From: an uncultured Flavobacteriales bacterium
Lineage (GTDB): Bacteria > Bacteroidota > Bacteroidia > Flavobacteriales_D > Sanyastnellaceae
NCBI GenBank assembly: GCA_938085105.1
Contig: CALKGK010000016.1
Coordinates: 1-47,252, forward strand
Reading direction: 5' to 3'
DNA length: 47,252 bases
Of the stretch, positions 18,330 through 35,419 are shown one piece after another. Numbering within the stretch: position 1 is the first letter of the stretch; each line of letters opens with the position of its first letter. The notes under the pieces are model-generated. The model was not told the DNA's origin. It searched no databases and saw nothing but the letters and a program-made list of their open reading frames with translations. The translations under genes were made by a program, and so were the position numbers.

Positions 18330-18671
18330 ATGAGTCAAAAGAAGTACACTTCGTTTAAGGACTTTTACCCCTACTATCTTTCGGAGCACCGCGAAACGGG
18401 CACGCGGATCACTCATTTTATTGGCACCAGCCTCTTTTTTGTATTTACTGCAGCAGCCATTGTATTGGGAAAGTGGTGGCTCGTGTTGATTGGAATCATT
18501 AGCGCCTACAAGATGGCATGGATTGGCCATTTCTTCATTGAAAAGAACAAACCCGCCACCTTTCAATATCCTTTGTGGAGTTTGATGGGCGACTTCAAAC
18601 TGTATTTTGAAATCCTCGTCTTCAAAGAATCCTTGAATGGGGACGACCCTCAGGACAATGCCGTTTCTTGA
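18330..18671 (+). CDS. Short Mpo1/DUF962-family membrane protein
   Basis: 113 residues. Two or three membrane helices (FIGTSLFFVFTAAAIVLG, WLVLIGIISAYKMAWIG) are framed by the family's His motifs: YLSEHRETGTRITHF at residues 16-30 and WIGHFFIEKNKPATFQYP near 70. Its size and order match the short bacterial DUF962 proteins. By homology with yeast Mpo1 it may be an iron-dependent lipid oxygenase, but this is unproven. It is the last gene of the ATE-like/xth cluster. Its last 22 bases overlap the 3' end of the convergent maltose phosphorylase gene. Confidence 0.85.
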   Translation: MSQKKYTSFKDFYPYYLSEHRETGTRITHFIGTSLFFVFTAAAIVLGKWWLVLIGIISAYKMAWIGHFFIEKNKPATFQYPLWSLMGDFKLYFEILVFKESLNGDDPQDNAVS

Positions 18672-20929
18672 CCGTTGATCACCACTGAAATGGGATCTCC
18701 TTCGAGGAGCAGCACTTTTGTTTCAGAAGCATTCACCTCAACCTGCATCTTTCTCCCTTTGAACATCACCTTAAAGGAATACGCCTCCCAGTGTTTTGGA
18801 ATCATGGTGTTGAAGTGTTGCACACCGTCTTTTACTCGGTAGCCACCAAAACCTTCCACCACAGACATCCAGGTTCCCGCCATGCTCGTAATGTGCAAGC
18901 CTTGATAAGCTTCGTGGTTGTAATCGTCCAAATCCAAACGTGAAGTTCTCAGGTACATCTCATAAGCCTTCTCTTCATAGCCCAAGCGCGCGGCAAGAAC
19001 CACGTGAACGCAGGGACTCAAAGAACTTTCGTGCACCGTAAAGGGTTCGTAAAAGTCGAAATTCTCCTTGATGGTTTCCACATCAAAATGATCTTCGAAG
19101 AGGTAGAGTCCTTGCAGGGTATCTGCTTGTTTGATGTACACCGATCTCAAAATACGGTCCCATGACCACTTTTGGTTGATCGGACGATCTTTGTCTGCCA
19201 ATTCGCTCACTGGAATCAACTCTTTGTCGAGAAAACCATCTTGTTGAAGGAAGACCTTCGAACCCTCTTTTTTGGGGAAGTACATCTTTTCGATGATGTC
19301 TGCCCATCGCTGGGTTTCCTCTTCCTCCTTGAACCTGTATTGGGCACATTTTTGCTGATAGACCACGGAATGAGCATCTTTCAAATAGAGAATGCACTTC
19401 AAGGTGTAAGATAAGCACCACTTTGCGATGTAGTTTGTGTACCAATTATTGTTGACGTTGTTTTCGTACTCATTGGGTCCGGTTACCCCCAACATCACAT
19501 ATCCTTGTTTGCTTTCGGACCAGTTGACCCTTTGCGACCAAAAGCGGGCAATTCCTAGCAGCACATCGAAACCGGATTCAGCGATGTATTCTTTATTGCC
19601 AGTGAAACGCACATAATTGTGGATGGCAAAGGCGATTGCACCATTTCTGTGGATCTCCTCGAAAGTGATTTCCCATTCATTGTGGCACTCCTCTCCTGTC
19701 ATGGTCACCATTGGATACAAAGCTGCTCCATTCACAAAGCCCAACTTTTCTGCATTTTCGATGGCTTTATCGAGTTGTTTGAAACGGTATTTCAGCAACT
19801 GTTTGGACACCTCCTCTGGGTGTGTACTCAGGTAAAAGGGCAAGCAATATGCCTCGGTGTCCCAGTACGTAGACCCCCCGTATTTTTCGCCGGTAAAGCC
19901 TTTCGGACCGATGTTTAAACGAGCATCTTCGCCCGTGTAGGTTTGATTTAAATGAAAAATATTGAATCGAATGCCTTGTTGAGCTTCCACGTCACCATCA
20001 ATAATGATATCGCCATTTTCCCAAATCTTGCTCCAAGCAACTGCGTGCTCTTCAAACATCTTTTGAGCACCTTTTGAAGCTGAACGACGAGCGGCATCTT
20101 GGGCATTTTTAACCAAGTCGGCCACATCGTGATTCATCGAACTTAACAAGCCCACATGCTTTTCAAAACTTGCCGTTTCGCCTTCCTCAAGCACCAAACG
20201 AAACTCTTGTGAAGCATAACTATTACTACTGTTTGCAGCAACTGGCCACACTTCAGCCCCTTTCACTGTGCATTTGCTTTCCATGGCAGCCGACAAAGTG
20301 AAATTGGTTTTCTTCGTGCTTGCTTTTACGTAGGCCGACTCCAATTCCGCCTCAGCGTCCAGCAAGTTCCAGAACTTTTCGTCCCAGTTGGTGTCTTGAT
20401 TTTCTACATCGCTATCGAGGTAAGACACCACCTCGAGTTGAACCGTTTTGCTTGGAGTGATGCTGTATTGAATGCAAGCACAATCATCATCAGCCATGCT
20501 GCAAATTCGTTGTGCCAGTACCTCAATTGAGAAATCTCCTGAAGGCGCCGTAGCCTTGAACGAACGTTGGAGCAAGCCCGATTTCATATCGAGCACCCTT
20601 TCAAAACGGTCTACTTTCCACGTATGAAGGTCCAGTTCAACACCATCAACCTTAACACTTAAGCCGATCCAATTGATGCTGTTAAGCACCTTTGCAAAAT
20701 ATTCAGGATAACCGTTCTTCCACCAACCTACTTTGGTTTTATCGGGGTAATAAATCCCCGCTACGTAGGAACCTTGGTGGTGGTCTCCAGAATAGTGCTC
20801 TTCGAAATTGGCACGTTGACCGAATTGACCATTTCCAATGGAGAAAATGGATTCTGAACTTCTTTGATATTCTGGATGAAAGGAAGATTCAATCACCTTC
20901 CAATCGTTGGCGTCGAGGTACTTGATCAT
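18650..20929 (-). CDS. mapA: Glycoside hydrolase family 65 maltose phosphorylase
   Basis: 759 residues, the usual size for GH65 phosphorylases. It splits maltose with inorganic phosphate into glucose and beta-glucose 1-phosphate, in the cytosol. Visible landmarks: FSIGNGQFGQRANFEE near residue 30, GGSTYWDTEAYCLPFY near 351-366, TGEECHNEWEI near 411, and GVTGPNEYENNV with the general-acid Glu487, the same number as in the Lactobacillus enzyme. There is no signal peptide. It is the last gene of the six-gene operon, 17 bases after pgmB, whose enzyme uses the product. Trehalose or another disaccharide as substrate cannot be excluded from sequence alone, but the GH13/SusCD context favours maltose. 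Confidence 0.92.
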   Translation of the reverse strand: MIKYLDANDWKVIESSFHPEYQRSSESIFSIGNGQFGQRANFEEHYSGDHHQGSYVAGIYYPDKTKVGWWKNGYPEYFAKVLNSINWIGLSVKVDGVELDLHTWKVDRFERVLDMKSGLLQRSFKATAPSGDFSIEVLAQRICSMADDDCACIQYSITPSKTVQLEVVSYLDSDVENQDTNWDEKFWNLLDAEAELESAYVKASTKKTNFTLSAAMESKCTVKGAEVWPVAANSSNSYASQEFRLVLEEGETASFEKHVGLLSSMNHDVADLVKNAQDAARRSASKGAQKMFEEHAVAWSKIWENGDIIIDGDVEAQQGIRFNIFHLNQTYTGEDARLNIGPKGFTGEKYGGSTYWDTEAYCLPFYLSTHPEEVSKQLLKYRFKQLDKAIENAEKLGFVNGAALYPMVTMTGEECHNEWEITFEEIHRNGAIAFAIHNYVRFTGNKEYIAESGFDVLLGIARFWSQRVNWSESKQGYVMLGVTGPNEYENNVNNNWYTNYIAKWCLSYTLKCILYLKDAHSVVYQQKCAQYRFKEEEETQRWADIIEKMYFPKKEGSKVFLQQDGFLDKELIPVSELADKDRPINQKWSWDRILRSVYIKQADTLQGLYLFEDHFDVETIKENFDFYEPFTVHESSLSPCVHVVLAARLGYEEKAYEMYLRTSRLDLDDYNHEAYQGLHITSMAGTWMSVVEGFGGYRVKDGVQHFNTMIPKHWEAYSFKVMFKGRKMQVEVNASETKVLLLEGDPISVVINGQETALS

Positions 20930-20946: not shown

Positions 20947-21600
20947 CTATTTAAAACGTTGAATCAAATCGTTGAGGCGAAAATCTTGGAAACCTGGGAT
21001 CACAAAATTTGCCTGATTGAGGTGTTGTTCCTCACCGATGCCTACACATCGAAAGCCACCATCAATGGCCGCCTTGACCCCAGCGCTAGCATCTTCAAAA
21101 ACAACACAATCTTTGGGTTTTAGTCCCATCGCTTCAGCCCCCTTGAGAAATACTTCGGGGTCGGGCTTCGAGAAAGTCACCTTATTCCCATCGATGATGG
21201 CGTCAAACTTGGAGAGCAGTTTGATCCGCTCGAGAATGACTGTAGCATTTCTGCTTGAACTCCCCAAGGCCACCTTCATACCAGCAGCCATAAGCTCATC
21301 GATGAACTCTCCTACTCCAGGAAGAATTTCCTCTTCGTTCATGGACGAAATGTATTGGAGATAGGATTGATTTTTTTTGTCCATGAGCGCCAATTTGGTA
21401 TCGTTGTCCAAATGCAGATTACCCATCTTCAAAATCCGTTCTAGGGAATCGACACGGCTGAGTCCTTTGAGTTGTTCGTTGTCATGCTCGGTGAACTTTA
21501 CACCAATCTCTTTGGCGAGTTCTTGCCAAGCCACAAAATGGTATTTGGCGGAGTCAACAATCACCCCGTCCATATCAAAAATACATGCTTTGATGCTCAT
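20947..21600 (-). CDS. pgmB: Beta-phosphoglucomutase
   Basis: 217 residues, a HAD-superfamily subclass I enzyme of normal length. It converts beta-glucose 1-phosphate to glucose 6-phosphate. Seen: the phospho-acceptor motif FDMDGVIVDS with Asp9 and general acid/base Asp11, a cap region with GLSRVDSLERIL (pattern seen in beta-PGMs), LGSSSRNA, and FSKPDPEVFLKGAEAMGL followed by VVFEDASAGVKAA. It sits 17 bases upstream of the maltose phosphorylase gene and 15 bases downstream of the methylglyoxal-synthase-like gene, the classical mapA-pgmB pairing. Confidence 0.95.
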   Translation of the reverse strand: MSIKACIFDMDGVIVDSAKYHFVAWQELAKEIGVKFTEHDNEQLKGLSRVDSLERILKMGNLHLDNDTKLALMDKKNQSYLQYISSMNEEEILPGVGEFIDELMAAGMKVALGSSSRNATVILERIKLLSKFDAIIDGNKVTFSKPDPEVFLKGAEAMGLKPKDCVVFEDASAGVKAAIDGGFRCVGIGEEQHLNQANFVIPGFQDFRLNDLIQRFK

Positions 21601-21615
21601 AATGTAATGCTTGTT

Positions 21616-22041
21616 TTATTCACTGAGGTCGGCCTCTGTCCTGCTCTTGATCAGCTCAGCGGTTTCTTTTTTAATCAGCCCCAAAATGAGAAGTTCTGCA
21701 CTTGCAGGGTTGGTTGCCAAAGGAATGTTGACGCGGTTACAGGCATTGATGAACGCCGCCACTTCGTCTTGGTAGTCTTGATGGATGTCTGAATCTCGGA
21801 AATAGAGCACCATGGCGATATCTCCTGACTCCACCATCTTTTTCAGTTCCAAGTATCCGCCCGATTTCCCTTCACTCAAGTGAGTGATTTGGAGATCAAT
21901 GTTTGCAGATCTTAGCGACTCCGCCGTCATTCCCGTAGCAATGATTTTTCTCCCCCAGAGCCAATCTTTTCGTTCTTCGAGAAACTCAGCCAGGGTGGGT
22001 TTCATCTTATTGTGCGCAACGACGGCGATGTTTTTGATCAT
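21616..22041 (-). CDS. Methylglyoxal synthase family protein without the catalytic aspartate
   Basis: 141 residues from ATG at 22041, overlapping the TGA of the kinase gene in ATGA; upstream codons belong to that gene. The fold signature is clear: IKNIAVVAHNKMKP, IIATGMTAE, then VNIPLATNPASAELLI. E. coli MgsA makes methylglyoxal from dihydroxyacetone phosphate using Asp71 of GGDQQ; here the aligned segment is SGGYLELKK, with Tyr in place of Asp. Asp20 of VAHDHCK is Asn in VAHNKMK. The later Asp positions (LYFRDSD, HQDYQDE) are approximately kept. Catalysis as in E. coli is therefore doubtful; a triose-phosphate or phosphate sensing role is possible. Its place in a glycolytic operon fits either reading. 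Confidence 0.8.
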   Translation of the reverse strand: MIKNIAVVAHNKMKPTLAEFLEERKDWLWGRKIIATGMTAESLRSANIDLQITHLSEGKSGGYLELKKMVESGDIAMVLYFRDSDIHQDYQDEVAAFINACNRVNIPLATNPASAELLILGLIKKETAELIKSRTEADLSE

Positions 22042-22910
22042 GCGTTTTCTTGTTTCTGGTTGAAGATATACTTCGCGTGGTAATCTGCCAAAGTATAAAT
22101 GGGTTTCTTGATGATATTTCCGAGGATGACCCCCTCTTGTTCGCAAACCAATTGCAGACAATCTTCAAAATAATAGCCCACACTACCAATGAAATGCACA
22201 GGAAGATCTTGCCACCCCTCAAAGCACTTCACATGAATATCGATGAATTTTCGAATTCCCTCTTTCACCCATTCTTTCAAAAGCGGGTGACCGCCATTCT
22301 GGGTGTAAAACTTCATGTAAGAAGCCAGATAAACATTGGCGTTATCCCTGCGATAAACCGCATCGATCATATCGTCCTTGCTCAAATGGTAGGTATTTTC
22401 GAAACGCTCCATCAGTTCTTTTGGCAAACGCTTGTAGAAGTAGTTGGACAAGAGCATTTTCCCGAAGTAAGAACCGGAAGCCTCATCGCCCAAGATATAG
22501 GCCAAAGCAGGAACTTCTTCATACACCTCTTTACCATCAAAAAAGCAGGAATTGGATCCCGTACCGATGATACAAGTGATGTTTGGTCGGCCATCATACA
22601 CCGAAAACGCCGCTCCCACCAAGTCGTGATCCACCACCACTTTTGCATGGGTAAAAACCCTGCTCAAGCCCTCGTGCATGATGTTGCACAAACGCTCTGT
22701 TGACGCACCTGCGCCGTAGAAGAAAACCTGTTCCAAGTTGGCCGCCACCTTCATGATGGCCTCGTTTGAACGAAGGGTTTCCGCAATAAAATCGGCACTG
22801 TGGAAATACGGATTGAGACCGATGGAACGGTATTCGTCCAATCGGTCTCCCTTTTCATTTATCAATAACCAATCGCACTTTGTCGATCCGCTATCCGCAA
22901 TTAAAATCAT
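22038..22910 (-). CDS. BadF/BadG/BcrA/BcrD-type ATPase, probable sugar kinase (N-acetylglucosamine kinase-like)
   Basis: 290 residues with an ASKHA kinase fold. The phosphate-1 loop is LIADSGSTKCDW at the N-terminus, the phosphate-2 region is CIIGTGSNSCFFDG near residue 115, and ILGDEASGSYFGK follows near 138. Bacteroidota proteins of this type are commonly called N-acetylglucosamine kinases. Here the operon (maltose phosphorylase, pgmB, pfkA, gapA) suggests that the substrate is the free glucose released by maltose phosphorolysis, making it a glucokinase; this is inference. The gene starts 18 bases after gapA and its stop overlaps the next start by four bases, so translation is likely coupled. 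Confidence 0.85.
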   Translation of the reverse strand: MILIADSGSTKCDWLLINEKGDRLDEYRSIGLNPYFHSADFIAETLRSNEAIMKVAANLEQVFFYGAGASTERLCNIMHEGLSRVFTHAKVVVDHDLVGAAFSVYDGRPNITCIIGTGSNSCFFDGKEVYEEVPALAYILGDEASGSYFGKMLLSNYFYKRLPKELMERFENTYHLSKDDMIDAVYRRDNANVYLASYMKFYTQNGGHPLLKEWVKEGIRKFIDIHVKCFEGWQDLPVHFIGSVGYYFEDCLQLVCEQEGVILGNIIKKPIYTLADYHAKYIFNQKQENA

Positions 22911-22928: not shown

Positions 22929-24895
<1,967 letters not shown>

Positions 24896-24916: not shown

Positions 24917-24924
24917 CGAAGTTA
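24917..24924 (-). promoter_or_regulatory. Possible -7 element of the pfkA operon
   Basis: The minus strand reads TAACTTCG, one mismatch from TAnnTTTG, 22 bases before the pfkA start and touching the edge of the palindrome at 24924-24940. Bound protein there would lie in the spacer between -7 and -33. Tentative. Confidence 0.35.
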
Positions 24925-24940
24925 GTGTATTATTTACACT
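24924..24940. promoter_or_regulatory. Candidate operator (AGTGTA-N5-TACACT palindrome), pfkA/regulator intergenic region
   Basis: AGTGTA TTATT TACACT, a perfect 6+6 inverted repeat in the divergent gap between pfkA and the Nudix regulator. The same GTGT-N7-ACAC core preceded by TTA occurs at 27968-27984 and 30881-30897 before the GH13 and susC genes. It is likely bound by a dimer, for which the Nudix-type regulator is the natural candidate. Confidence 0.6.
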
Positions 24941-24992
24941 TTACTTCATTCAAGGCCGAATTTTCTTGAAAACAGCCTTTGGTTTTGTTTAT

Positions 24993-25000
24993 TAACTTTG
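24993..25000 (+). promoter_or_regulatory. Probable -7 element of the regulator gene
   Basis: TAACTTTG exactly matches TAnnTTTG, 20 bases before the ATG at 25021. A TTG at 24966-24968 is 24 bases upstream, slightly beyond the usual 17-23 spacing. It implies a very short leader and argues against starting translation further upstream. Confidence 0.5.
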
Positions 25001-25020
25001 CCCAATGTAAATCAGACTTT

Positions 25021-25734
25021 ATGGATAAGCAAGCGGTAAACGGGTTAGACATCTCTGTGGATTGTGTGGTATTTGGATTTGATGGAGAAACCTTGAAATT
25101 GCTTTTGATTGAGCAAAGTGCAGGCGCCGACTTCCCAAAAGAGAAGCTTCAAATGGCTTTACCGGGGGATCTTGTTCAAGCGAATGAGGCTTTGGATGAA
25201 AGTGCAGCCCGAGTATTGACAGAGCTTACCTCTTTGGAAGGCATCTACTTGAAGCAATTCCACACCTTTGGAGACCCCAACCGGGTGAAAGGACTGAAAG
25301 ATCAAGATTGGTTGAGAATGTTTCGTGCAAATCCTGATCAGCGCGTGATTACCGTTGGTTATTACAGTTTGGTTCGCATGGAAGACTACCAACCGGAAGC
25401 CGCCAGCTTTGCCGCAAAAGCTTCTTGGATTGATGTGAATGAAATCCCCTCCCTTGCTTTTGACCACAACGAGATTGTTGAAGAAGGCATCAAGACGCTG
25501 CGAGAAGAACTCGACAGCAAACACATTGGTTTTGAACTTCTCCCAGATAAATTTACGCTGGGTCAGCTCCAACTGCTTTACGAAATCATTCTCGACAAAA
25601 AACTCGACAAACGGAACTTCAGAAAGAACATCAAGAAGATGGATCAGGTGATTCCTTTGGACGAAAAACAACAAGGGGTGTTGCACAAGCCTGCACAACT
25701 CTTCCGCTTTGAACGAGACGAGGAATTGAAATGA
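25021..25734 (+). CDS. Nudix-type transcriptional regulator (NrtR/AraR-like)
   Basis: 237 residues from ATG at 25021; an in-frame TTG at 24979 precedes the -7 box and is rejected. Residues about 8-150 form a Nudix domain (SVDCVVFGFDGETLKLLLIEQ, then LPGDLV). The Nudix box is degenerate: where hydrolases have REUxEExGU it reads ARVLTELTSLEG, so it probably senses a ligand rather than hydrolysing one. Residues about 175-237 match the NrtR winged-helix end (FTLGQLQLLYEIIL, LDKRNFRKNIKK). Relatives control NAD or sugar genes, e.g. AraR of Bacteroides. Divergence from the pfkA operon and proximity to GH13/SusCD suggest it controls the alpha-glucan genes. Its stop overlaps the CotH gene start by four bases. 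Confidence 0.88.
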   Translation: MDKQAVNGLDISVDCVVFGFDGETLKLLLIEQSAGADFPKEKLQMALPGDLVQANEALDESAARVLTELTSLEGIYLKQFHTFGDPNRVKGLKDQDWLRMFRANPDQRVITVGYYSLVRMEDYQPEAASFAAKASWIDVNEIPSLAFDHNEIVEEGIKTLREELDSKHIGFELLPDKFTLGQLQLLYEIILDKKLDKRNFRKNIKKMDQVIPLDEKQQGVLHKPAQLFRFERDEELK

Positions 25735-27965
25735 TTCGCCTGCTCACAATCACCGCAGGAATGCTGCTTTATGGTAGTTCCCTTGCACAGCTTTTTCAAG
25801 TGGAGAACAATGCCGCTTTTCTACAAGATGAAATTGCTGAAATACACATAACGCTGGATGCAGACAGTTTGGCCGACATGCTGCTCGAAGAAAACCTCTA
25901 CCTCGACCACGAATACCCCGCCACTTTTGTTTATCGAAGTGAAGGCATTTCAGACACCGTTCCGAACATTGGCTTTCGCTTAAGAGGGAACACTTCCAGA
26001 CAAGCTGGGAAAAAGTCCTTTAAGGTTTCCTTCAACACTTTTGACAACAACCAGAGCTATCGCGGACTGGAAAAAATGAATTTGAACGGAGAGCACAATG
26101 ATGTTTCCATGCTGCGTTCAAAGATTTGTTGGGAGATGCTTCACGAAGCTGATTTGCCGGCTTCGAGAACGAGTCATGTTGCCCTCTACATCAATGAAGC
26201 GTTTCGCGGAGTGTATTTAAACGTGGAGCACATTGACGAAGAATACATCGAAAAACGCTTTGGCAACAACAGTGGGAATCTATACAAGTGCACCTACGGA
26301 AGTAACTTGGAATTTTTAGGAAACAACCCTGAAGCGTACAAACTCAGTCCGTGGGGATCTCGAATTTATGAGTTGAAGACCAACACTGCTGCCGATGATT
26401 ATAGTGATTTGGCCGAATTCATTGGAGTATTGAACGACATCAACAACGAGGATTTCCAATGTGAAATTGAAGCTGTATTGAACGTCAATCACTACCTGAA
26501 AAACCTCGTCTACGAAATCCTTTTTGGCCATTGGGACGGCTATTCCATCAACCAGAACAACTATTACCTTTATAAAAACCCTGCCGATCAACGCTTCTAT
26601 TTTTTGAGTTTTGATTTGGACAATACCCTTGGAGTGGATTTCTTCAATCAGCCTTGGGAAACCTGGAACATCTATCAATGGGAATTTGGGGAGCGTCCGC
26701 TTTACCAAAGCATCATGTCATTTCCCGATTATCGAGCGCGATTCACAGCATATATGGAAGATGCTTTGAATAATGTTTATCAGGAATCGGAGCTCATTTC
26801 CCGCCTCGAAGAAATGCAGGAACTCATTCTCCCTTTTGCCCTTGAAGATGAATACAAAACTTTGGATTACGGCTTCGATAATGTCGACTTTGAAAATGCA
26901 ATTTCGGAGGCTTGGGGCGGACACATCCCCATCGGAATCGCTGATTTTATCGAAGCACGAGCCAACAGCGCATTGGATCAACTCCAAAACAATAACGCTG
27001 ATTTTAGTATTGTATTATCAAACAATAATAGTCTGTCAAACAACAACTTTAGTGTTTTTGCCGAAACCAATGGTGCAAGTGAAGTGCAATTGGAATACTG
27101 GTGGAGCAATACTCCTGAAACCGTCTTTTCGAGTGAAATGCTGAATGACGGTTTGGGCTTTGATTTAATTGCGGGAGATCACTGGTGGACGAGCACCCTT
27201 TTGTTGGATGAAACCGGTGATCAACTTCGCTACCGAGCACGAGCACAATACAACGGCGAATGGAGTGAATGGACTTGCGAAGAAATGGTATGGACGAGCA
27301 AGAGCTCAACCCCTCTTGTCATCAACGAAATCATGCCTTTGAACAATGGTTTTTTGGCCGATGAGTTTGGTGAGTACGACGATTGGTGCGAACTATATAA
27401 TGCGGGAGACCAAGCCATCTTTATTGGAAACAAATACCTCAGCAATAACGCAGAAGAGCCCAACAAATGGAAACTTCCTAACCTCACTCTCGAAGCAGGG
27501 GCTTTTTTGCTACTTTGGCTGGATGATGATGAAGAACAAGGAGTATTTCATGCCGACTTCTCTCTGGACAACAGCGGAGACGAGCTCTATTTGTTTGGAG
27601 TTGAAAGTGGCGAATACCGGCTGATGGACGAGCGTTCCTTTGGAAACATCACCCCAGATCAAAGCATAGGAAGATCGGAAGACGGCGGATCGGAATGGGT
27701 GCTTTTTGAAAATCCGACTCCGAATTCCAGTAACGCAAATGTGAATTCCATCAGCCAAAACGAGTTGAGGGATTGGCAGTTTTACCCAAACCCCGCAAGT
27801 CACCTCCTACACTTCTCTAGTTCCGTTTCAGGAAAGCTTATCAACATTCAAGGAGCCGAATTGATCCGTTTCCAAAACACCAAAACCTTAGATATTTCAA
27901 GCCTTTCGACAGGAATCTATCTCCTCAAGGTACATCATAGGACCTACAGATTGGTGAAATCTTAG
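25731..27965 (+). CDS. T9SS-exported CotH-kinase protein with lamin-tail domain
   Basis: 744 residues. Signal peptide 1-19 (LLYGSSLAQ). The CotH kinase domain spans about 35-410: FRLRGNTSRQAGKKSFKVSF with candidate ATP-contacting Lys95/98, FGHWDGYSINQNNYYLY near 265-281, and FLSFDLDNTLG near 291-301, which resembles the metal-binding loop. A lamin-tail domain lies at about 526-640 (LVINEIMPLN, ADFSLDNSGDELYLF). The T9SS sorting domain (FYPNPASHLL) is at 684-744. CotH of Bacillus spores phosphorylates coat proteins; bacterial exported relatives have unknown targets. The ATGA overlap with the Nudix regulator implies coupled translation, unusual for a surface protein. A role in the glucan system is inferred only from position. 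Confidence 0.88.
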   Translation: MIRLLTITAGMLLYGSSLAQLFQVENNAAFLQDEIAEIHITLDADSLADMLLEENLYLDHEYPATFVYRSEGISDTVPNIGFRLRGNTSRQAGKKSFKVSFNTFDNNQSYRGLEKMNLNGEHNDVSMLRSKICWEMLHEADLPASRTSHVALYINEAFRGVYLNVEHIDEEYIEKRFGNNSGNLYKCTYGSNLEFLGNNPEAYKLSPWGSRIYELKTNTAADDYSDLAEFIGVLNDINNEDFQCEIEAVLNVNHYLKNLVYEILFGHWDGYSINQNNYYLYKNPADQRFYFLSFDLDNTLGVDFFNQPWETWNIYQWEFGERPLYQSIMSFPDYRARFTAYMEDALNNVYQESELISRLEEMQELILPFALEDEYKTLDYGFDNVDFENAISEAWGGHIPIGIADFIEARANSALDQLQNNNADFSIVLSNNNSLSNNNFSVFAETNGASEVQLEYWWSNTPETVFSSEMLNDGLGFDLIAGDHWWTSTLLLDETGDQLRYRARAQYNGEWSEWTCEEMVWTSKSSTPLVINEIMPLNNGFLADEFGEYDDWCELYNAGDQAIFIGNKYLSNNAEEPNKWKLPNLTLEAGAFLLLWLDDDEEQGVFHADFSLDNSGDELYLFGVESGEYRLMDERSFGNITPDQSIGRSEDGGSEWVLFENPTPNSSNANVNSISQNELRDWQFYPNPASHLLHFSSSVSGKLINIQGAELIRFQNTKTLDISSLSTGIYLLKVHHRTYRLVKS

Positions 27966-27967
27966 TT

Positions 27968-27984
27968 AGTGTACGTGCAACACT
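27968..27984. promoter_or_regulatory. Candidate operator before the GH13 amylase gene
   Basis: AGTGTA CGTGC AACACT, an 11-of-12 match to the AGTGTA-N5-TACACT pattern, starting three bases after the CotH stop codon. It ends six bases before the -7 element TATATTTG, so it lies in the -33 to -7 spacer, a position suited to repression. Confidence 0.55.
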
Positions 27985-27990
27985 TTATTG

Positions 27991-27998
27991 TATATTTG
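27991..27998 (+). promoter_or_regulatory. Probable -7 element of the GH13 amylase gene
   Basis: TATATTTG matches TAnnTTTG exactly, 20 bases before the ATG at 28019. A -33 TTTG is not evident; the operator occupies that stretch. Confidence 0.5.
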
Positions 27999-28018
27999 AA
28001 ACTCACCATTAAGAGAAT

Positions 28019-30853
28019 ATGATGAAAAAGTTGTTCCTTTTGGCATCTTACTGCCTTATTTTTAGTGGATTAAGCGCTCAGATCGTTTGGACAGAGCCCG
28101 CCTTCCCAACTCAGGATGATGAATTAATATTGTACTACGATGCCACCCAAGGAAACGGTGGACTGGTAGGAACAACTCCTGTTTACATCCATACTGGTGT
28201 AATTACAAGCCTCTCTCCAACGCCTACAAGCTGGCAACATGTTCAAGGTAATTGGGGTCAGGCAGATGCCAACGTTTTGATGTCGCCCCTAGGGAACAAC
28301 CTCCACTCCTTTGACTTCGGCGGACAAACCCTCGCTGAATTTTACGGTTTACAGCCAGACGAAACCATCGAAGCACTTGCAATGGTCTTCAGAAACCAAA
28401 ACGGAAGTGCAGAAGGAAAAACAGAAGATGGAGGAGATATCTTTTATTCCCTTACCGACGGAAGTTTTACCGTTCAATTTATTAGTCCGGCAGAGGAAAG
28501 CATCATCCTTGAAGTTGATCAAAGTGTAAACATCAATGCTCAATGCTCTTCAAGCGCAGATTTGTCGCTTACCGTTGACGGAAACGAAGAAGCCTCAGCA
28601 TTGGCAGCCACCAGCTTGGAATACACCTTCACCCCTACAGAAGCCGGCACCTACAACATTACTATCTCAGGCGACAACGGAACAGAAACGGCCAGCGACA
28701 CCTTTGAAGTAGTCGTTCTCGGAAATCAAAACGTTGCTGCTTCTCCAGCGGGAGTTGAGGATGGAATCAACTACATTGATGATAACACAGTAGTATTGCA
28801 ACTTTTCGCTCCAAACAAGGAAAACATCTTCGTTATCGGTGATTTCAACAATTGGAACTTTGACGCTGATTATTTGATGAATTTGGACACCGATGGGGAA
28901 ACCTTTTGGCTTGAAATTGGTGGTTTGACACCTGGACAAGAGTACCGTTTCCAATACTACATCTCTTCCGACAACATGCGCATTGCAGATCCCTATTCGG
29001 AGAAAATTCTCGATCCATGGAACGACCAGTGGATTTCTGATGACACCTACCCTAACCTCATTGAGTACCCTAGCGGATCTACTACCATGCCGGTAACTGT
29101 GTTGGAAACAGGGCAAACTGAATTTAATTGGACCGACGAAAATTACGTGCGTCCGGAAGAAGAGAAACTCGTAATCTACGAAACCCTCCTTCGTGATTTC
29201 ATTGCCGCTCACGATTACGCAACCCTCACCGACAGCCTGGATTATCTCGAAAATTTAGGAGTGAACGCCATTCAATTGATGCCCGTGAACGAATTCGAGG
29301 GAAACGAAAGCTGGGGCTATAATCCTTCTTTCTTTTTTGCGGCGGACAAATATTACGGTCCAAGTGAGAGCTACAAAGCCTTTGTGAACGAATGTCACAA
29401 CCGCGGAATTGCTGTAATTATGGACATCGCCTTGAACCACAGTTTTGGTCAGAACCCGCAAGTGAGAATGTACTTCGACGCGAACATTGGTCCGTTTGGA
29501 GAGCCCACCGCTGAGAACCCTTGGTTCAACCAAACACCACGTCACGACTTCAACGTAGGCTACGATTACAACCACGAGAGTCCGCACACCAGAGCTTTCT
29601 GCAAACGCGTTCTCGAACATTGGGTTGAAGAATTCCACATTGACGGATATCGAATGGATCTATCAAAAGGCTTCACACAGAACAACACCTTGGGAAATAT
29701 TGGTGCTTGGAATGCCTACGATCAGAGTCGGGTAGACATCTTGAACGACTATAAAAACCACTTATGGAGTGTTGAACCCGGTGCATACATGATCTTGGAG
29801 CACTTTGCTGACAACGGTGAAGAAACCGCATTGGCGAACCAAGGCTTCATGCTTTGGGGGAACATCAACCACGAATACAATGAAGCTACCATGGGGTACA
29901 ATTCAGACCTCTCTTGGGGATCATACCAAACCCGTGGTTGGAACGACCCACACCTCATTAGTTACATGGAAAGTCATGACGAAGAGCGCCTTATGTACAA
30001 GAACCTTTTGTATGGAAACAGCGCCAATGGTTACGACATTACTCAAATGAACACAGCTCTTGCTCGTATGGAATTGGCTTCCTGCTTCCTCTACCCGATA
30101 CCTGGTCCGAAAATGCTTTGGCAGTTTGGAGAGCTTGGATATGATTTCTCCATCAACTATTGCACCGATGGAACCATTAATGAAAACTGTAGAACAGGGA
30201 ACAAGCCCATTCGTTGGGATTATTTTGATGAAGCAGCGAGAAGAAGAGTGTACAACGTAACTGCAGCCTTGAATCACCTCAAAACCACAGAGCCTGCCTT
30301 CTCCACCACCGACTTCAACATCGACCTAGGTGGCTTTGGAAAACGTATCCATTTGAACCACTCAAGCATGAACGTCACCATCATCGGTAACTTCGACGTT
30401 GTGGGCATCAACATGATACCAGGATTCCAGAACACAGGAACTTGGTATGACTACTTCACTGGAGAAGTAATTCAAGTGACCGACCTCAACAATGCCTTCT
30501 TCTTGGAACCAGGAGAATACCGCTTGTACACCACTGTGCCATTGGAAACACCCGTAATTGATCTGGGCATTGATGAGGAAGCAACGACTGCACAAGTTGC
30601 CATTTACCCAAATCCAGCGCAAGATGAAACCACCATTGATTTGAGCCGAAGCAACTGGAACGTTCAAGACATCAGTATTGAAGTATTTGACATGCGCGGA
30701 CAACGAGTGAGTGAGCAAATCGAAACAAATCAAGTATCGAGTAGCAGCATTCGATTGACTGAATTGGATCGTTTGACCCCAGGAATGTACATAGTTGCGC
30801 TTCAAGGGAAAAACGAAACACTGCGAAGAACCATTATCGTTCAAGGAAAATAG
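28019..30853 (+). CDS. GH13 alpha-amylase-family enzyme exported by T9SS
   Basis: 944 residues. Signal peptide 1-20 (IFSGLSA-Q). Residues 21-145 form an N-terminal domain resembling the first part of the SusE/F-like protein at 35939. A CBM48-like domain lies at about 243-340 (FVIGDFNNWNFDA). The GH13 barrel spans about 380-760: region I DIALNHS (469-475), nucleophile Asp547 in GYRMDLSK, acid/base Glu594 in MILEHF, and Asp654 in ESHDEER. The T9SS sorting domain (IYPNPAQDE) spans 860-944. It cleaves alpha-glucans, probably outside the cell. The closest arrangement resembles branching-enzyme or neopullulanase-like GH13 proteins, so exact bond specificity is open. Two ATGs stand in tandem (28019, 28022). 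The gene has its own promoter and operator. Confidence 0.92.
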   Translation: MMKKLFLLASYCLIFSGLSAQIVWTEPAFPTQDDELILYYDATQGNGGLVGTTPVYIHTGVITSLSPTPTSWQHVQGNWGQADANVLMSPLGNNLHSFDFGGQTLAEFYGLQPDETIEALAMVFRNQNGSAEGKTEDGGDIFYSLTDGSFTVQFISPAEESIILEVDQSVNINAQCSSSADLSLTVDGNEEASALAATSLEYTFTPTEAGTYNITISGDNGTETASDTFEVVVLGNQNVAASPAGVEDGINYIDDNTVVLQLFAPNKENIFVIGDFNNWNFDADYLMNLDTDGETFWLEIGGLTPGQEYRFQYYISSDNMRIADPYSEKILDPWNDQWISDDTYPNLIEYPSGSTTMPVTVLETGQTEFNWTDENYVRPEEEKLVIYETLLRDFIAAHDYATLTDSLDYLENLGVNAIQLMPVNEFEGNESWGYNPSFFFAADKYYGPSESYKAFVNECHNRGIAVIMDIALNHSFGQNPQVRMYFDANIGPFGEPTAENPWFNQTPRHDFNVGYDYNHESPHTRAFCKRVLEHWVEEFHIDGYRMDLSKGFTQNNTLGNIGAWNAYDQSRVDILNDYKNHLWSVEPGAYMILEHFADNGEETALANQGFMLWGNINHEYNEATMGYNSDLSWGSYQTRGWNDPHLISYMESHDEERLMYKNLLYGNSANGYDITQMNTALARMELASCFLYPIPGPKMLWQFGELGYDFSINYCTDGTINENCRTGNKPIRWDYFDEAARRRVYNVTAALNHLKTTEPAFSTTDFNIDLGGFGKRIHLNHSSMNVTIIGNFDVVGINMIPGFQNTGTWYDYFTGEVIQVTDLNNAFFLEPGEYRLYTTVPLETPVIDLGIDEEATTAQVAIYPNPAQDETTIDLSRSNWNVQDISIEVFDMRGQRVSEQIETNQVSSSSIRLTELDRLTPGMYIVALQGKNETLRRTIIVQGK

Positions 30854-30880
30854 CGACAGTACCTTGAAGATAAATGACTT

Positions 30881-30897
30881 AGTGTAAAGCACACACA
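30881..30897. promoter_or_regulatory. Candidate operator before susC
   Basis: AGTGTA AAGCA CACACA, containing GTGT-N7-ACAC and preceded by TT as at the other two sites. It lies 47 bases before the susC ATG. Weak -7-like boxes follow (TACCTTAG at 30912, TACCTTTA at 30922). This is the least symmetrical of the three copies. Confidence 0.45.
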
Positions 30898-30944: not shown

Positions 30945-33900
30945 ATGAGAACCAAGATCTTCCTTGTAGGAGCCTGCATGTTAATGTGCATTAGTTCATT
31001 TGTGCAAGCTCAAACAGTGAAAGGGATTGTTAGCGATGAAAACAATCTTGTGTTGCCCGGAGCATCCGTGCTTGCCGATGGCGGAGCGAAAGGAGTATCA
31101 ACCGACATGAACGGTTCATACAGCCTCAACCTCTCTCCTGGTGAACACACCCTTGAATTTAGCTTCATTGGCTACCAGAAACAAAGCAAGAAAGTTGTTT
31201 TGACTGCCGGACAAACTTTGGAGTTAAACATCAGCATGCAGCCCGACGCCGTATTTATTGACGATGTCGTTGTTGTGGGCTACGGTGTTCAGCGAAAGAA
31301 AGACGTTACCGGAAACATTGCCACCGTTGACGCCAAGAAAATCACCGCCTTACCCACTCCTAGCTTCGAGGCCGCACTTCAAGGTCAGGCAGCCGGAGTT
31401 CAAGTAACCCAAGGTTCGGGACTCGCCGGTTCTGCCTCCACCATTCGTGTGCGTGGAACAGCCTCGGTTTCTGCAGGTGGTGATCCGCTTTATGTAGTGG
31501 ATGGAATTCCAATTACCCAAGATTACTTTATCCGAGGGAACGGAGGAGCGATGAACAACAACCCGCTCGCTACCCTCAACCCGAACGACATCGAATCGGT
31601 TGAAATCTTGAAAGACGCCTCTGCCACCGCCATTTACGGTTCTCGTGGAGCAAATGGAGTTATTCTCATCACCACCAAACGAGGAGCCAAGAAAAAAGGA
31701 CTTAGCATCGATTTCACTTCTCGTGTAGGAATCTCTACCCCCGCATCCTTACCGAACATGACCAACACCGAAGAATACCTTCAATTGCGTCAGGAAGCAT
31801 GGGAAAACGACGGAGGTACGGGCTATGTTTGGTTGCCGAATTATACTACGGCTGATGATGATGCCGAAACCAGAGCACTCGCCTACCGCGAAGCCATGGG
31901 TCGCGACATCGACTGGGTGGATCGCACCATTGGTACGGGAGTTAAACAAATGTACAGCGTTGGTTTGCGCAAAGGGGGTGAGAAATATGCTCTTTATGCT
32001 GGTTTGTCTTACGACGACAATGAGTCATACCTTATTGGAAACGGCTATGAAAGAATCAGTGGACGAATCAACTTTGACTACACCATCAACAAGTGGTTGA
32101 AAGCCATGGTATCGAGTTCTCTTTCTCGAGGAACCAACAGCAGAATTGATGCCGCTTGGAGCGGTGGCTTGGGTGATGCCATGTCGAACGCCCTCCCCTT
32201 CTACCCTGTTCGTTATGACGAAACTGTTTTGGATGAAGACGGTAATGTGCTTCACCCTGAAGACGAGTACTTCATTTGGAGAGACGAGTTCGGAGGTGCG
32301 AAGAACCCCGTTGGCTACCGAGAATCCTTCAAAAGCTGGAAGAACATCGAAAACCGATCCGTAAACAACGTTCGATTGCTCATCAACCCCATCAAAAACC
32401 TCAATATTGTCGCAAGTGGTGGTTTTGATTGGATGTTTTTGAGAGAAGAAATTGACGAAGCACCGATCCCAACCGTGCGCGACTTCTCACAATCCTTCCT
32501 CAACGTGAACTACATCTTGAACTGGAACTATTCCTTGACCGCCAACTATGATTGGGATTTATTGGAAGACCATAAATTTGGTTTCTTGGCTGGAACAGAA
32601 TTTCAACGATCAGACAGCTACGGATACTCTGAAGAAGTTACCGACGAAATCCCAACTCCACAGCGAAACGGGAACCCGTCGCAGTTCAGCTTCTTGTCTT
32701 ACTTCGGTAGAGCAAATTATACCTATAAAGATCGATACCTCGTTCAAGCCACCGCCCGTGTTGATGGATCATCGCGATTTGGTAGAAACAACCGTTACGG
32801 ATTCTTCCCATCAGTATCAGCAGGTTGGATCGTGAGCGAGGAGAATTTCATGAAAGACAGCAAAACCATTTCCTTCTTGAAAGTAAAAGCCTCTTACGGA
32901 CTCACAGGAAATGCCAATATTCCAGATTACGCACGTTTTGGAACCTACTCCGCTGCCGACAATGGAATCTTGTATGGAAATGAGAACATTCTCTTCCCAC
33001 TGCAATTGGCCAACCCTAACCTTCAGTGGGAAACCTCTAGAGTTGTTGATGCCTCCGTGGAAGTGGGACTGTGGAAAGACCGAGTAACCTTTGAATTGGG
33101 CGTTTACAACAAGCTATCGCAAGACGTTTTGATGAACGTAAACGTATCTCCAAGTACTGGATTCACCAATTACTGGGATAACGTAGCTGAAATCTTAAAC
33201 CGAGGAGTTGAGTTCTCCATCAAATCGAGAAACCTCGTTGGGAAATTTGAATGGACCACCGAATTCAACCTTGCGAGAAATTACAACGAGTTGGTAGACA
33301 TCGGTAACTACACCCCAGACGCCGTTTCTGGTGGAACCAATGACTCCCGTGTAATTGTTGGGAAGCCCATCGGAAGCTTCTACCTCGTAGAGTTCTCTCA
33401 TGTGGATCAAGCCAACGGATTGCCAGTGTATCTTGACCTCAACGGAAACGAAACCTACGACTACGACAACGCCATTCGTAAGTATGTTGGTGACGGATTG
33501 CCGGATTTCATTGGTGGAATTACCAACAGCTTCCGGTACAAGAATTGGGACATGCAAGCACTTGCCATCTTCAGTGTAGGAGCTAAAATCTTCGATTCTT
33601 CAGCGAAACGTCAGCTCGGTGTTGTTTCCTCTTGGAACATGCGAACCGACAAATTCGATCGTTGGAGACAACCTGGCGATGTGGCCGAATTCCCTATCCT
33701 TACCCTCGATGAAACAAAGTACGGTTTGGATGAAGGATTCCCTTGGTGGAACACCAGTCTGTTCGTTTATGACGCATCTTACTTCCGTTTGAGAAACATT
33801 GCCCTTGGATATACCTTCCAGAACTTGAAAGTGAAGAACATGACCTTCAACAACCTGAGATTGGCAGTGAATGTGACCAACGTTTTCACCTTAACCAACT

Positions 33901-34031
33901 TCCCTGGATTGGATCCTGAAGTAGCGAGAGATTTTGAAAACGCACAGGACCGTAACTTGAGTCCGAACGTTACCTACCTCACCCCACCACAGGAGCGCTC
34001 TTACAACTTCACTTTATCCTTCGCATTTTAA
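30945..34031 (+). CDS. susC: SusC/RagA-family TonB-linked outer-membrane transporter
   Basis: 1028 residues, standard for SusC. Signal peptide 1-22 (SSFVQA-Q). Residues about 24-108 form the carboxypeptidase-regulatory-like domain (VKGIVSDENNLVLPGASV). A TonB-box-like GYGVQRKKDVTG is at about 112-123. The plug follows, with LYVVDGIPI and the ILKDASATAIYGSRGANGVILITTK hallmark near 220-245. The remainder is the beta-barrel, ending in aromatic LSFAF as outer-membrane barrels do. It imports oligosaccharides captured by SusD using TonB energy. The GH13 and maltose phosphorylase neighbours indicate maltooligosaccharides. It leads a close-packed operon: susD begins 20 bases later. Confidence 0.97.
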   Translation: MRTKIFLVGACMLMCISSFVQAQTVKGIVSDENNLVLPGASVLADGGAKGVSTDMNGSYSLNLSPGEHTLEFSFIGYQKQSKKVVLTAGQTLELNISMQPDAVFIDDVVVVGYGVQRKKDVTGNIATVDAKKITALPTPSFEAALQGQAAGVQVTQGSGLAGSASTIRVRGTASVSAGGDPLYVVDGIPITQDYFIRGNGGAMNNNPLATLNPNDIESVEILKDASATAIYGSRGANGVILITTKRGAKKKGLSIDFTSRVGISTPASLPNMTNTEEYLQLRQEAWENDGGTGYVWLPNYTTADDDAETRALAYREAMGRDIDWVDRTIGTGVKQMYSVGLRKGGEKYALYAGLSYDDNESYLIGNGYERISGRINFDYTINKWLKAMVSSSLSRGTNSRIDAAWSGGLGDAMSNALPFYPVRYDETVLDEDGNVLHPEDEYFIWRDEFGGAKNPVGYRESFKSWKNIENRSVNNVRLLINPIKNLNIVASGGFDWMFLREEIDEAPIPTVRDFSQSFLNVNYILNWNYSLTANYDWDLLEDHKFGFLAGTEFQRSDSYGYSEEVTDEIPTPQRNGNPSQFSFLSYFGRANYTYKDRYLVQATARVDGSSRFGRNNRYGFFPSVSAGWIVSEENFMKDSKTISFLKVKASYGLTGNANIPDYARFGTYSAADNGILYGNENILFPLQLANPNLQWETSRVVDASVEVGLWKDRVTFELGVYNKLSQDVLMNVNVSPSTGFTNYWDNVAEILNRGVEFSIKSRNLVGKFEWTTEFNLARNYNELVDIGNYTPDAVSGGTNDSRVIVGKPIGSFYLVEFSHVDQANGLPVYLDLNGNETYDYDNAIRKYVGDGLPDFIGGITNSFRYKNWDMQALAIFSVGAKIFDSSAKRQLGVVSSWNMRTDKFDRWRQPGDVAEFPILTLDETKYGLDEGFPWWNTSLFVYDASYFRLRNIALGYTFQNLKVKNMTFNNLRLAVNVTNVFTLTNFPGLDPEVARDFENAQDRNLSPNVTYLTPPQERSYNFTLSFAF

Positions 34032-34051: not shown

Positions 34052-35419
34052 ATGAAGATCAACTATAAATACCTTTTGATACTCGCTTGTGGCTTGATGA
34101 CATTGAGCGCATGTGACAAATTACTTGAGTTTGAACCGGGCGATGTTATCCTTGCTGAAGACGCATTGAAAACGCCGGAAGACCTCCAACGTTTGCTGAA
34201 CTCGAACTACGACGTTTTGGCGAACCTTTACGACGGTCGGGTTCAGGTTTTGAGTGAATTGCTAACCGACAACCTCAGCTTTCCTGAAGACAACAACGAT
34301 TATGCTGCTGTTTATGGAAGACAAACCAATTTCTTCACCTCCACCACCAATGGAGTATATTCCGACTTCTACAGAGCCATCTACCGATGCAACACCGTAT
34401 TGGAAAGTTTCGACTTCATCGATGGTTTAAGCGAAAGCGAACAAAAACGCATTGAAGCAGAAGCGCGTTTCATTCGAGCATTGTGCCACTGGTCTTTGGT
34501 GAAGCTCTACGCTCAGCCTTATAACAATACTCCAAACAACAGTCATTTGGGCATTGTATTGCGTTTGGAAGCCTCCCAAGAGCCGCTATCGAGAAACACC
34601 GTTGCAGAAGTATACGACGCCATTATTGACGACCTCCTCTTTGCTCATAGCAACCTGCCCATCGAGAATGGTTTTTATGCGAGCAGAAAGAGTGCAGCCG
34701 GGTATTTGGCTCACGTTTATTTCTTGATGAACGAATTGCCGAACGCCAACTTCTACGCCTCTGAGGTCATCAACAGCATGGAATTCACTTTGGACAATGA
34801 TCTCGATCGATTCGAGCAAGACAACATTTCTTCTGAAACCGTGTTTGGAATTGTGAGTTTCAGTAACGACTTTAGAAATGAAGGATTTAGCAACAACTAT
34901 CGATCAGACATCGGAACGCCGGTTTTGTCAATGAGCGAAAGCGTTTTCACCACCTTCTCACTCAATCCTAGTGATTTGAGGAATGAATGGATCGAAAACA
35001 ACAACGGAACATACTACACGACCCGTTTTAATGGAGCCAACTACTTCAACATTCCTTTGGTTCACCTCACAGGCTTGCACTTGCTTCGAGCTGAAGCCTT
35101 GGCAACAGAAGGAATTGATTTGGATGTTGCGATTGCTGATGTGAACGCCATTCGCACCCGAGCATTCGGTGAAGGAATCAACCAATTACCGAGCGATGCC
35201 AGCGCGGAGGACATCATTGAAGCAGCGCGTGAAGAGATGTTCAAAGAAACCATTTGCGAAGGGGTGTGGATTGATTACTTGAAGCGCCGAGGTACTTTGG
35301 GCGAAGACATCATCATCCGTGGAGCACCTTACGATTGTCCGGGAATGGCTTTGCAGTTCCCCAACGGAGAAACTTCGGTATCCGGATTTCAATTGAACCC
35401 AGAAGGTGGTTGTAACTAA
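34052..35419 (+). CDS. susD: SusD/RagB-family glycan-binding lipoprotein
   Basis: 455 residues. Lipobox LMTLSAC with Cys21, then a short linker. SusD signatures include LLEFEPGD near the N-terminus, DLQRLLNSNYDVL, RCNTVLESFDF, RIEAEARFIRALCHWSLVKLY (the TPR-like helical core) and the late HLTGLHLLRAEALA segment with AIADVNAIRTRA. The C-terminal half carries a REEMFKETICEGVWIDYLKRRG stretch usual in the family. It captures starch fragments on the cell surface and hands them to SusC. It is shorter than the B. thetaiotaomicron protein (551 residues), as in many flavobacteria. Confidence 0.96.
   Translation: MKINYKYLLILACGLMTLSACDKLLEFEPGDVILAEDALKTPEDLQRLLNSNYDVLANLYDGRVQVLSELLTDNLSFPEDNNDYAAVYGRQTNFFTSTTNGVYSDFYRAIYRCNTVLESFDFIDGLSESEQKRIEAEARFIRALCHWSLVKLYAQPYNNTPNNSHLGIVLRLEASQEPLSRNTVAEVYDAIIDDLLFAHSNLPIENGFYASRKSAAGYLAHVYFLMNELPNANFYASEVINSMEFTLDNDLDRFEQDNISSETVFGIVSFSNDFRNEGFSNNYRSDIGTPVLSMSESVFTTFSLNPSDLRNEWIENNNGTYYTTRFNGANYFNIPLVHLTGLHLLRAEALATEGIDLDVAIADVNAIRTRAFGEGINQLPSDASAEDIIEAAREEMFKETICEGVWIDYLKRRGTLGEDIIIRGAPYDCPGMALQFPNGETSVSGFQLNPEGGCN

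Follow-up and report, generated by a model that had tools for sequence, protein, structure and literature searches.

In Bacteroides, NrtR-type regulators have been described for the use of two sugars, arabinose and xylose (PMC4666351, PMC3878776). One of them, BtAraR (BT0354) of Bacteroides thetaiotaomicron, is an L-arabinose repressor of the NrtR family, the free dimer of which binds DNA and the winged helices of which are rotated away by the ligand; in the structure of its complex with DNA, residues K179, R180, N181 and K184 contact a GTGT half-site in the major groove (PMC4666351). The starch sus locus in Bacteroides is controlled by the maltose-responsive SusR (PMC3878776), and in Proteobacteria HexR and CceR are regulators of central carbon metabolism comparable to the one proposed here (PMC5507952). 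In the open-licence papers searched, no core-glycolysis regulator was seen for Bacteroidota, nor an NrtR-type glycolysis regulator. Here, we analyze a stretch of 47,252 nt, referred to as the window, from an uncultured Flavobacteriales bacterium of the Sanyastnellaceae (contig CALKGK010000016.1, assembly GCA_938085105.1), in which the gene of an NrtR/AraR-type protein lies divergent from pfkA and next to genes for alpha-glucan use, and in which three similar palindromes precede transcription units of this locus.

We propose, with a probability of roughly 0.8, that this protein reads the palindrome AGTGTA-N5-TACACT as a dimer and ties alpha-glucan use to central sugar metabolism. The proposal is drawn from sequence comparison, namely from conservation of the sites at orthologous genes, an identical DNA-contact helix, joint loss of regulator and sites, and covariation of helix and palindrome; from these we infer the binding itself, repression, the class of effector and a different action at the distal sites of the genes for phosphoenolpyruvate carboxykinase (PEPCK), glutamate dehydrogenase (GDH) and pyruvate dehydrogenase (PDH). 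In the proposed mechanism, the dimeric regulator would bind sites covering or abutting the -7 region of the pfkA-gapA-kinase-HAD-GH65 operon, of the alpha-glucan genes, and of the genes for phosphoglucose isomerase (PGI), pyruvate kinase and amylases, and because of this position repression would be expected without effector. The effector would be a sugar or sugar phosphate from alpha-glucan or glucose, bound in the Nudix pocket; the content of the regulon points to a hexose or hexose phosphate. By analogy with L-arabinose in BtAraR, the ligand would swing the winged helices apart and release the promoters, so that alpha-glucan uptake would be coupled to glycolytic capacity.

All three palindromes, which had been described in an earlier note on this DNA, were found again at their places (Table 1). 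Each is directly preceded by TT, and they share GTGT-N7-ACAC, a pattern that occurs exactly three times in the whole window, at these places alone. The estimate of less than one chance occurrence per window is right as well (0.79 expected); three of 100 shuffled windows contained at least three occurrences, and the count by itself is only mildly unusual. The sites do lie at control regions, one in the region between pfkA and the regulator gene and the others with their ends 34 nt 5′ of the GH13 start codon (ATG) and 47 nt 5′ of that of susC.

In the 3.17 Mb source genome, the exact palindrome occurs five times versus 0.048 times expected from a first-order Markov model of 11 of its own stretches, and AGTGT-N7-ACACT occurs 11 times versus two for the reversed control pattern and 2.45 expected. 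With up to two mismatches there is no excess over the whole genome (56 versus 152 for the reversed control), so that this raw count is unusable for or against the reading and a site of the susC type is not believable alone. The weak susC site thus rests on its context, and for this site alone chance is possible.

Apart from the site shared by pfkA and the regulator, exact palindromes precede the genes for PGI (L009), a major-facilitator transporter (L006) and GDH (L008, 124 nt 5′ of the ATG) as well as the pyruvate-kinase operon (L007), where a gene for 152 amino acids stands between site and pyruvate-kinase gene. This small gene (L007, 3989-4447) has no Pfam match, lies directly 5′ of the pyruvate-kinase gene and carries the predicted operator, and similar small genes are found 5′ of pyk in relatives. 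AGTGT-N7-ACACT is also located before genes for a GH13 amylase (L011), a lectin-like CHU_C protein (L014), a small HAD protein (L010) and PDH E1-beta (L012, with the gene for the electron-transfer flavoprotein beta subunit divergent). At the PEPCK gene (L170), it lies 136 nt 5′ of the ATG and overlaps the end of the preceding gene. Based on the exact or near-exact sites at PGI, pyruvate kinase, PDH E1, GDH, PEPCK and the transporter, the site set reaches beyond alpha-glucan genes, and the predicted regulon is a central-carbon regulon of which the alpha-glucan locus is one part.

A search for orthologues of the regulator covered 150 genomes of the order and gave a match in 108; the locus counts given per gene include the window or its own genome. 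Ten close relatives contain 46 exact sites versus nine for the reversed control, and by a hand tally 37 of the 46 lie at genes for glycolysis, PDH, GDH, alpha-glucan use or sugar transport. Sites not conserved at orthologues and equally good sites inside unrelated genes had been named as counter-evidence in advance, a check that the proposal mostly withstood; of 32 exact sites fetched from ten relatives, 29 are intergenic, and the other three lay at the start of an open reading frame (ORF) that had been extended automatically to the first possible start codon. Conservation at orthologous genes is borne out for pfkA (21 of 24 loci) and GH13 genes (10 of 15) and is weak for susC (4 of 13, the window's own site being scored as a miss). 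A site was furthermore found at 15 of 24 pyruvate-kinase operons, 423-450 nt 5′ of the pyk ATG since the small gene precedes pyk, at 7 of 13 PGI loci and at 17 of 29 regulator genes. For PEPCK, AGTGT-N7-ACACT is present in 11 of 21 loci, and ten of these sites lie 136-151 nt 5′ of the ATG. The recA control gave no site in 22 loci, and the shuffle expectation per orthologue set is about 0.01-0.02 or less. Three loci with short upstream sequence (L047, L286, L308) were dropped, and PEPCK fragments (L287-L289) and a second recA copy (L313) are also outside these counts. In families f4 and f5 (50-59% identity), the pfkA site is kept in 6/6 loci and a susC site is present in both f5 loci, and in one f9 genome the PDH E1-alpha gene is preceded by an exact site.

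These distributions bear on the narrower model of the earlier note, a regulon confined to the local alpha-glucan genes. In f4 (50-53% identity), good sites are found mainly at pfkA, GH13 or carbohydrate-binding module (CBM) genes, and the local set may be an ancestral core. In the window's own family, however, sites are found repeatedly at the genes for PGI, pyruvate kinase, PEPCK, GDH and PDH, far from any alpha-glucan gene. We therefore consider a purely local regulon unlikely: the Nudix protein as the reader of the sites is well supported by sequence comparison, whereas the alpha-glucan regulon was drawn too narrowly.

The regulator has the domain composition of the NrtR family, a Nudix-like N-terminal domain and an NrtR-type winged helix, with all scores above cut-off (NrtR_WHD 90.7 bits, AraR_C 31.1 bits, NUDIX 29.6 bits). 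Its closest solved structures are BtAraR (5bs6, E = 1e-38) and then SoNrtR. The Nudix signature GX5EX7REUXEEXGU is impaired as judged by eye, with RE changed to RV and EE to EL. Equivalents of the DNA-contacting residues K179, R180, N181 and K184 are all present, as they are in 53 of 57 rows of the clade (which include several contigs met twice); the four f4 rows have R at position 184. At the minor-groove contact positions K204 and R205, the window regulator has H and K. The operators used in gel shifts with BtAraR (PMC4666351) share 11, 10 and 11 of the 12 positions with the palindrome, counted by eye. With the contact residues kept, binding of a dimer to a semipalindromic operator is predicted for the window regulator too. 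Two contigs titled Chryseobacterium gleum (L181, L189) encode regulators that fall among those of uncultured Flavobacteriales in the tree, and the record names look wrong.

Regulator and sites also disappear together. With the sites counted as 19-mers with up to one mismatch, genome G044, which lacks a match to the regulator, has none, while its congeners G020 and G034 have 11 and 8; G044 retains the pfkA-gapA-kinase genes, with no site of at least 10/12 positions within 15 kb. Genome G128 likewise has neither regulator match nor site, yet several orthologue-bearing members of its genus are also without site. If relatedness is ignored, the number of sites correlates with regulator identity at 0.76 over 41 genomes from the family.

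Moreover, the palindrome varies with the recognition helix. Paralogues with the helix DKGNFRK have TTGTA-N5-TACAA upstream in 4/4 loci, as has the one DTRNFRK homologue (1/1), and DKRNFRK homologues outside the clade are accompanied by GTGTA-N5-TACAC (Ignavibacteriales) or GTGT-N7-ACAC (Mucilaginibacter). Genomes G089 and G148 have no site before pfkA and contain distant homologues only, with the helix DIRNFRK, which are not accompanied by a TGT-N7-ACA palindrome. Among 14 homologues from Flavobacterium and Mesonia with a different helix, just one has a TGT-N7-ACA palindrome, a poor one, and single DKANFRK and DRRNFRK homologues have no such palindrome. The diverged DIRNFRK homologue of G089 (L346, 2931-3623) is encoded 3′ of the pfkA-gapA-kinase genes, where no AGTGTA palindrome was found, and may be the same regulator reading an altered operator. 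The DKGNFRK paralogues (L340-L343) are NrtR-type proteins adjoining CBM48-rich proteins of the type IX secretion system (T9SS) and GH2-like enzymes; together with TTGTA-N5-TACAA, a second sugar regulon is predicted here.

The palindromes could instead be real operators of another transcription factor. The NrtR_WHD domain, for which the window regulator is the only match in the genome, is the only regulator family that was counted genome-wide, and the observation that AraC, LacI or SusR-type regulators are absent, which does hold in a Pfam scan of 28 window proteins, proves little. The contact residues are, however, equal to those of BtAraR with operators alike, the site adjoins the regulator gene and changes in sequence along with the recognition helix, and G044 has lost both regulator and sites. 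Another reader is thus quite improbable, and the case for the Nudix protein is better made by its being the sole NrtR-domain protein, by its recognition residues, by co-loss and by covariation of helix and operator.

A further alternative takes the protein for an orthologue of AraR or XylR, a pentose regulator whose sites have been over-read, as the AraR_C match and the shared operator class might suggest. The arabinose pocket is, however, changed: R86 and H131 of BtAraR are kept, but R34 is replaced by Q in the window regulator and in most clade members, G48-F49 by D-L, and an insert of about 15 residues precedes V92 (GDPNRVxxLKDxxWLRxFRxxPxRRV), which is common to families f1 and f5 and has an altered form in f4. 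The scan of window proteins brought up no arabinose or xylose gene, and the clade forms one side of a 100/97 branch that does not include BtAraR, in a tree without XylR (BT0791). On the grounds of pocket residues, neighbourhood and tree, the AraR identity was rejected as very improbable. That the palindromes stand near promoters by chance, to which the modest window count and the missing genome excess at two mismatches would be open, is hardly credible and was rejected for the site set owing to the orthologue conservation with its recA control and the low shuffle expectation.

Several observations weigh against the proposed regulon. Sites are missing in 6 of 13 PGI, 9 of 24 pyruvate-kinase, 10 of 21 PEPCK, 5 of 15 GH13 and 9 of 13 susC loci, and in several family members whose orthologue is 58-66% identical the site number falls to background. 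A weak correlation with regulator identity is seen for the control pattern too (0.33 versus 0.76). Some exact sites stand at genes without an evident connection, namely those for an aminotransferase, serine hydroxymethyltransferase (SHMT), a response regulator, a short-chain dehydrogenase, an aldehyde dehydrogenase and a HAD protein. Outside the family, 9 of 22 sites with up to one mismatch were flagged inside ORFs, and weak sites there were counted as regulon only at pfkA, GH13, susC, CBM and PDH genes. The gene for fructose-1,6-bisphosphatase (FBPase) has a site in just 1 of 23 loci and was dropped as a core gluconeogenic target. Finally, the -7 boxes treated below are consensus matches only.

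In the genus of G020 and G034, exact sites precede genes for SHMT and an aminotransferase (L164, L166, L167, L169), hinting that the same regulator acts on serine or amino-acid genes there. The phosphoglucose isomerase family PF00342 was not found in 12 of 25 f1 genomes searched, most of them more than 95% complete, and these may use another isomerase.

The -7 element of Bacteroidota is TAnnTT(T/C/A)G. Matches to it in the window are listed in Table 1; the GH13 site does lie just 5′ of its putative box, as had been noted. For 13 of 22 pfkA sites, the element starts at an offset of -1 or 0 nt; at GH13 genes, its offset is 5-6 nt for 6 of 9 sites, and for one amylase type -1 to 7 nt in 6/6. It lies about 100-112 nt 3′ of the site in 10 of 12 cases for PEPCK, and 77-89 nt in 4/4 for GDH. 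Measured from the end of the site to the first in-frame ATG, median distances are 9-42 nt for seven catabolic families (PGI, the small gene before pyk, pfkA, two GH13 types, transporter, susC) and 56-141 nt for six others (FBPase with one site, PDH E1-beta, PDH E1-alpha, SHMT, GDH, PEPCK). The two groups differ at the family level with p = 0.001, the grouping having been chosen after the fact; GH31 (median 50.5), the HAD gene (26.5) and the regulator (79) were left out of this test and a pfkA site at 236 nt was kept.

The position overlapping the promoter suits a repressor. Cra/FruR of E. coli is a central-carbon regulator with two site geometries, and by this analogy the distal position would suit an activator, a looping site or another transcript being the alternatives. 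The contrast of promoter-overlapping and distal sites suggests a Cra-like dual regulator. As a tentative extension, to which we give clearly less than even odds, the protein would be a Nudix-fold counterpart of Cra in Bacteroidota. It would sense a hexose-derived metabolite in its modified pocket, repress pfkA-gapA and the genes for PGI, pyruvate kinase and alpha-glucan uptake from the sites that overlap promoters, act from upstream sites, probably as an activator, on PEPCK, GDH, PDH and SHMT, and switch the cell between sugar and amino-acid or gluconeogenic growth.

Table 1. Predicted operators, putative promoter elements and genes of the locus (window coordinates).
Feature	Position	Strand	Remarks
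Exact operator AGTGTATTATTTACACT	24924..24940	no strand	0 mismatches to AGTGTA-N5-TACACT; between divergent pfkA and regulator gene
Predicted operator before GH13 AGTGTACGTGCAACACT	27968..27984	no strand	1 mismatch
Weak predicted operator before susC AGTGTAAAGCACACACA	30881..30897	no strand	2 mismatches
Putative pfkA -7 box TAACTTCG	24917..24924	-	overlaps last base of operator; match to general consensus
Putative regulator -7 box TAACTTTG	24993..25000	+	52 nt after operator
Putative GH13 -7 box TATATTTG	27991..27998	+	6 nt after operator
Regulator	25021..25734	+	degenerate Nudix domain and NrtR-type winged helix; recognition helix DKRNFRK; 237 residues
pfkA, 6-phosphofructokinase	23924..24895	-	PF00365; first gene of predicted controlled operon
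gapA, glyceraldehyde-3-phosphate dehydrogenase	22929..23918	-	PF00044/PF02800
Sugar-kinase-like protein	22038..22910	-	GlcNAc/MurNAc kinase relatives in PDB; weak hexokinase match; no Pfam match
HAD hydrolase, probable beta-phosphoglucomutase	20947..21600	-	PF00702/PF13419; function suggested by neighbourhood
GH65, probable maltose or trehalose phosphorylase	18650..20929	-	PF03632/PF03636
CotH-family T9SS-sorted protein	25731..27965	+	domain scan
GH13 with CBM48, T9SS-sorted	28019..30853	+	domain scan
SusC-family receptor	30945..34031	+	TIGR04056
SusD-family protein	34052..35419	+	domain scan
Second GH13 with glycogen-binding module	36851..39232	+	domain scan

The order pfkA-gapA-sugar kinase-HAD-GH65 fits maltose phosphorolysis feeding glycolysis. 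The sugar-kinase-like protein, which may be the glucokinase of this operon, is flanked in most relatives by gapA and the HAD gene, and the CotH-family protein stands between regulator and GH13 gene in several relatives as well.

If the proposal is right, the NrtR/AraR scaffold has moved from the control of single sugars or NAD to that of central carbon metabolism, and it would show how these aquatic bacteria, as degraders of alpha-glucan, link uptake of the polymer to flux through glycolysis. Besides protein and operator, the prediction specifies at least nine promoters.

Among known systems, SusR differs most plainly in being a membrane activator with a periplasmic sensor and direct-repeat sites; no such protein was seen in the scan of window proteins. 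With the regulators of NAD metabolism NrtR, NdnR and NadQ the window protein shares the fold and the degenerate Nudix box; it differs from NrtR proper, which is linked to NAD, in that the scan of window proteins gave no NAD gene and in scoring 104.6 bits with the NCBIfam NtrR equivalog, below the cut-off of 400. Like HexR, CceR and Cra, it would be one regulator over glycolysis and, at least partly, gluconeogenesis (pckA), whereas those proteins have RpiR or LacI folds, other operators and other phyla as hosts, and the window regulator is not of the LacI type. From the AraR proteins of Bacteroidetes, with R34, R86 and H131 as arabinose contacts and clustering with arabinose genes, it is set apart by Q34 beside the retained R86 and H131, and by its neighbours pfkA, gapA, GH65, GH13 and sus genes (the neighbourhoods of relatives are partly annotated). 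BtAraR resembles it in the Nudix-like domain with winged helix, the same recognition-helix residues, operators matching the palindrome and control of SusC/SusD operons (PMC4666351); the differences lie in the pocket (Q34, D48, L49 and the insert), in the separate branch of the tree and in a predicted regulon of glycolysis and alpha-glucan use instead of arabinose.

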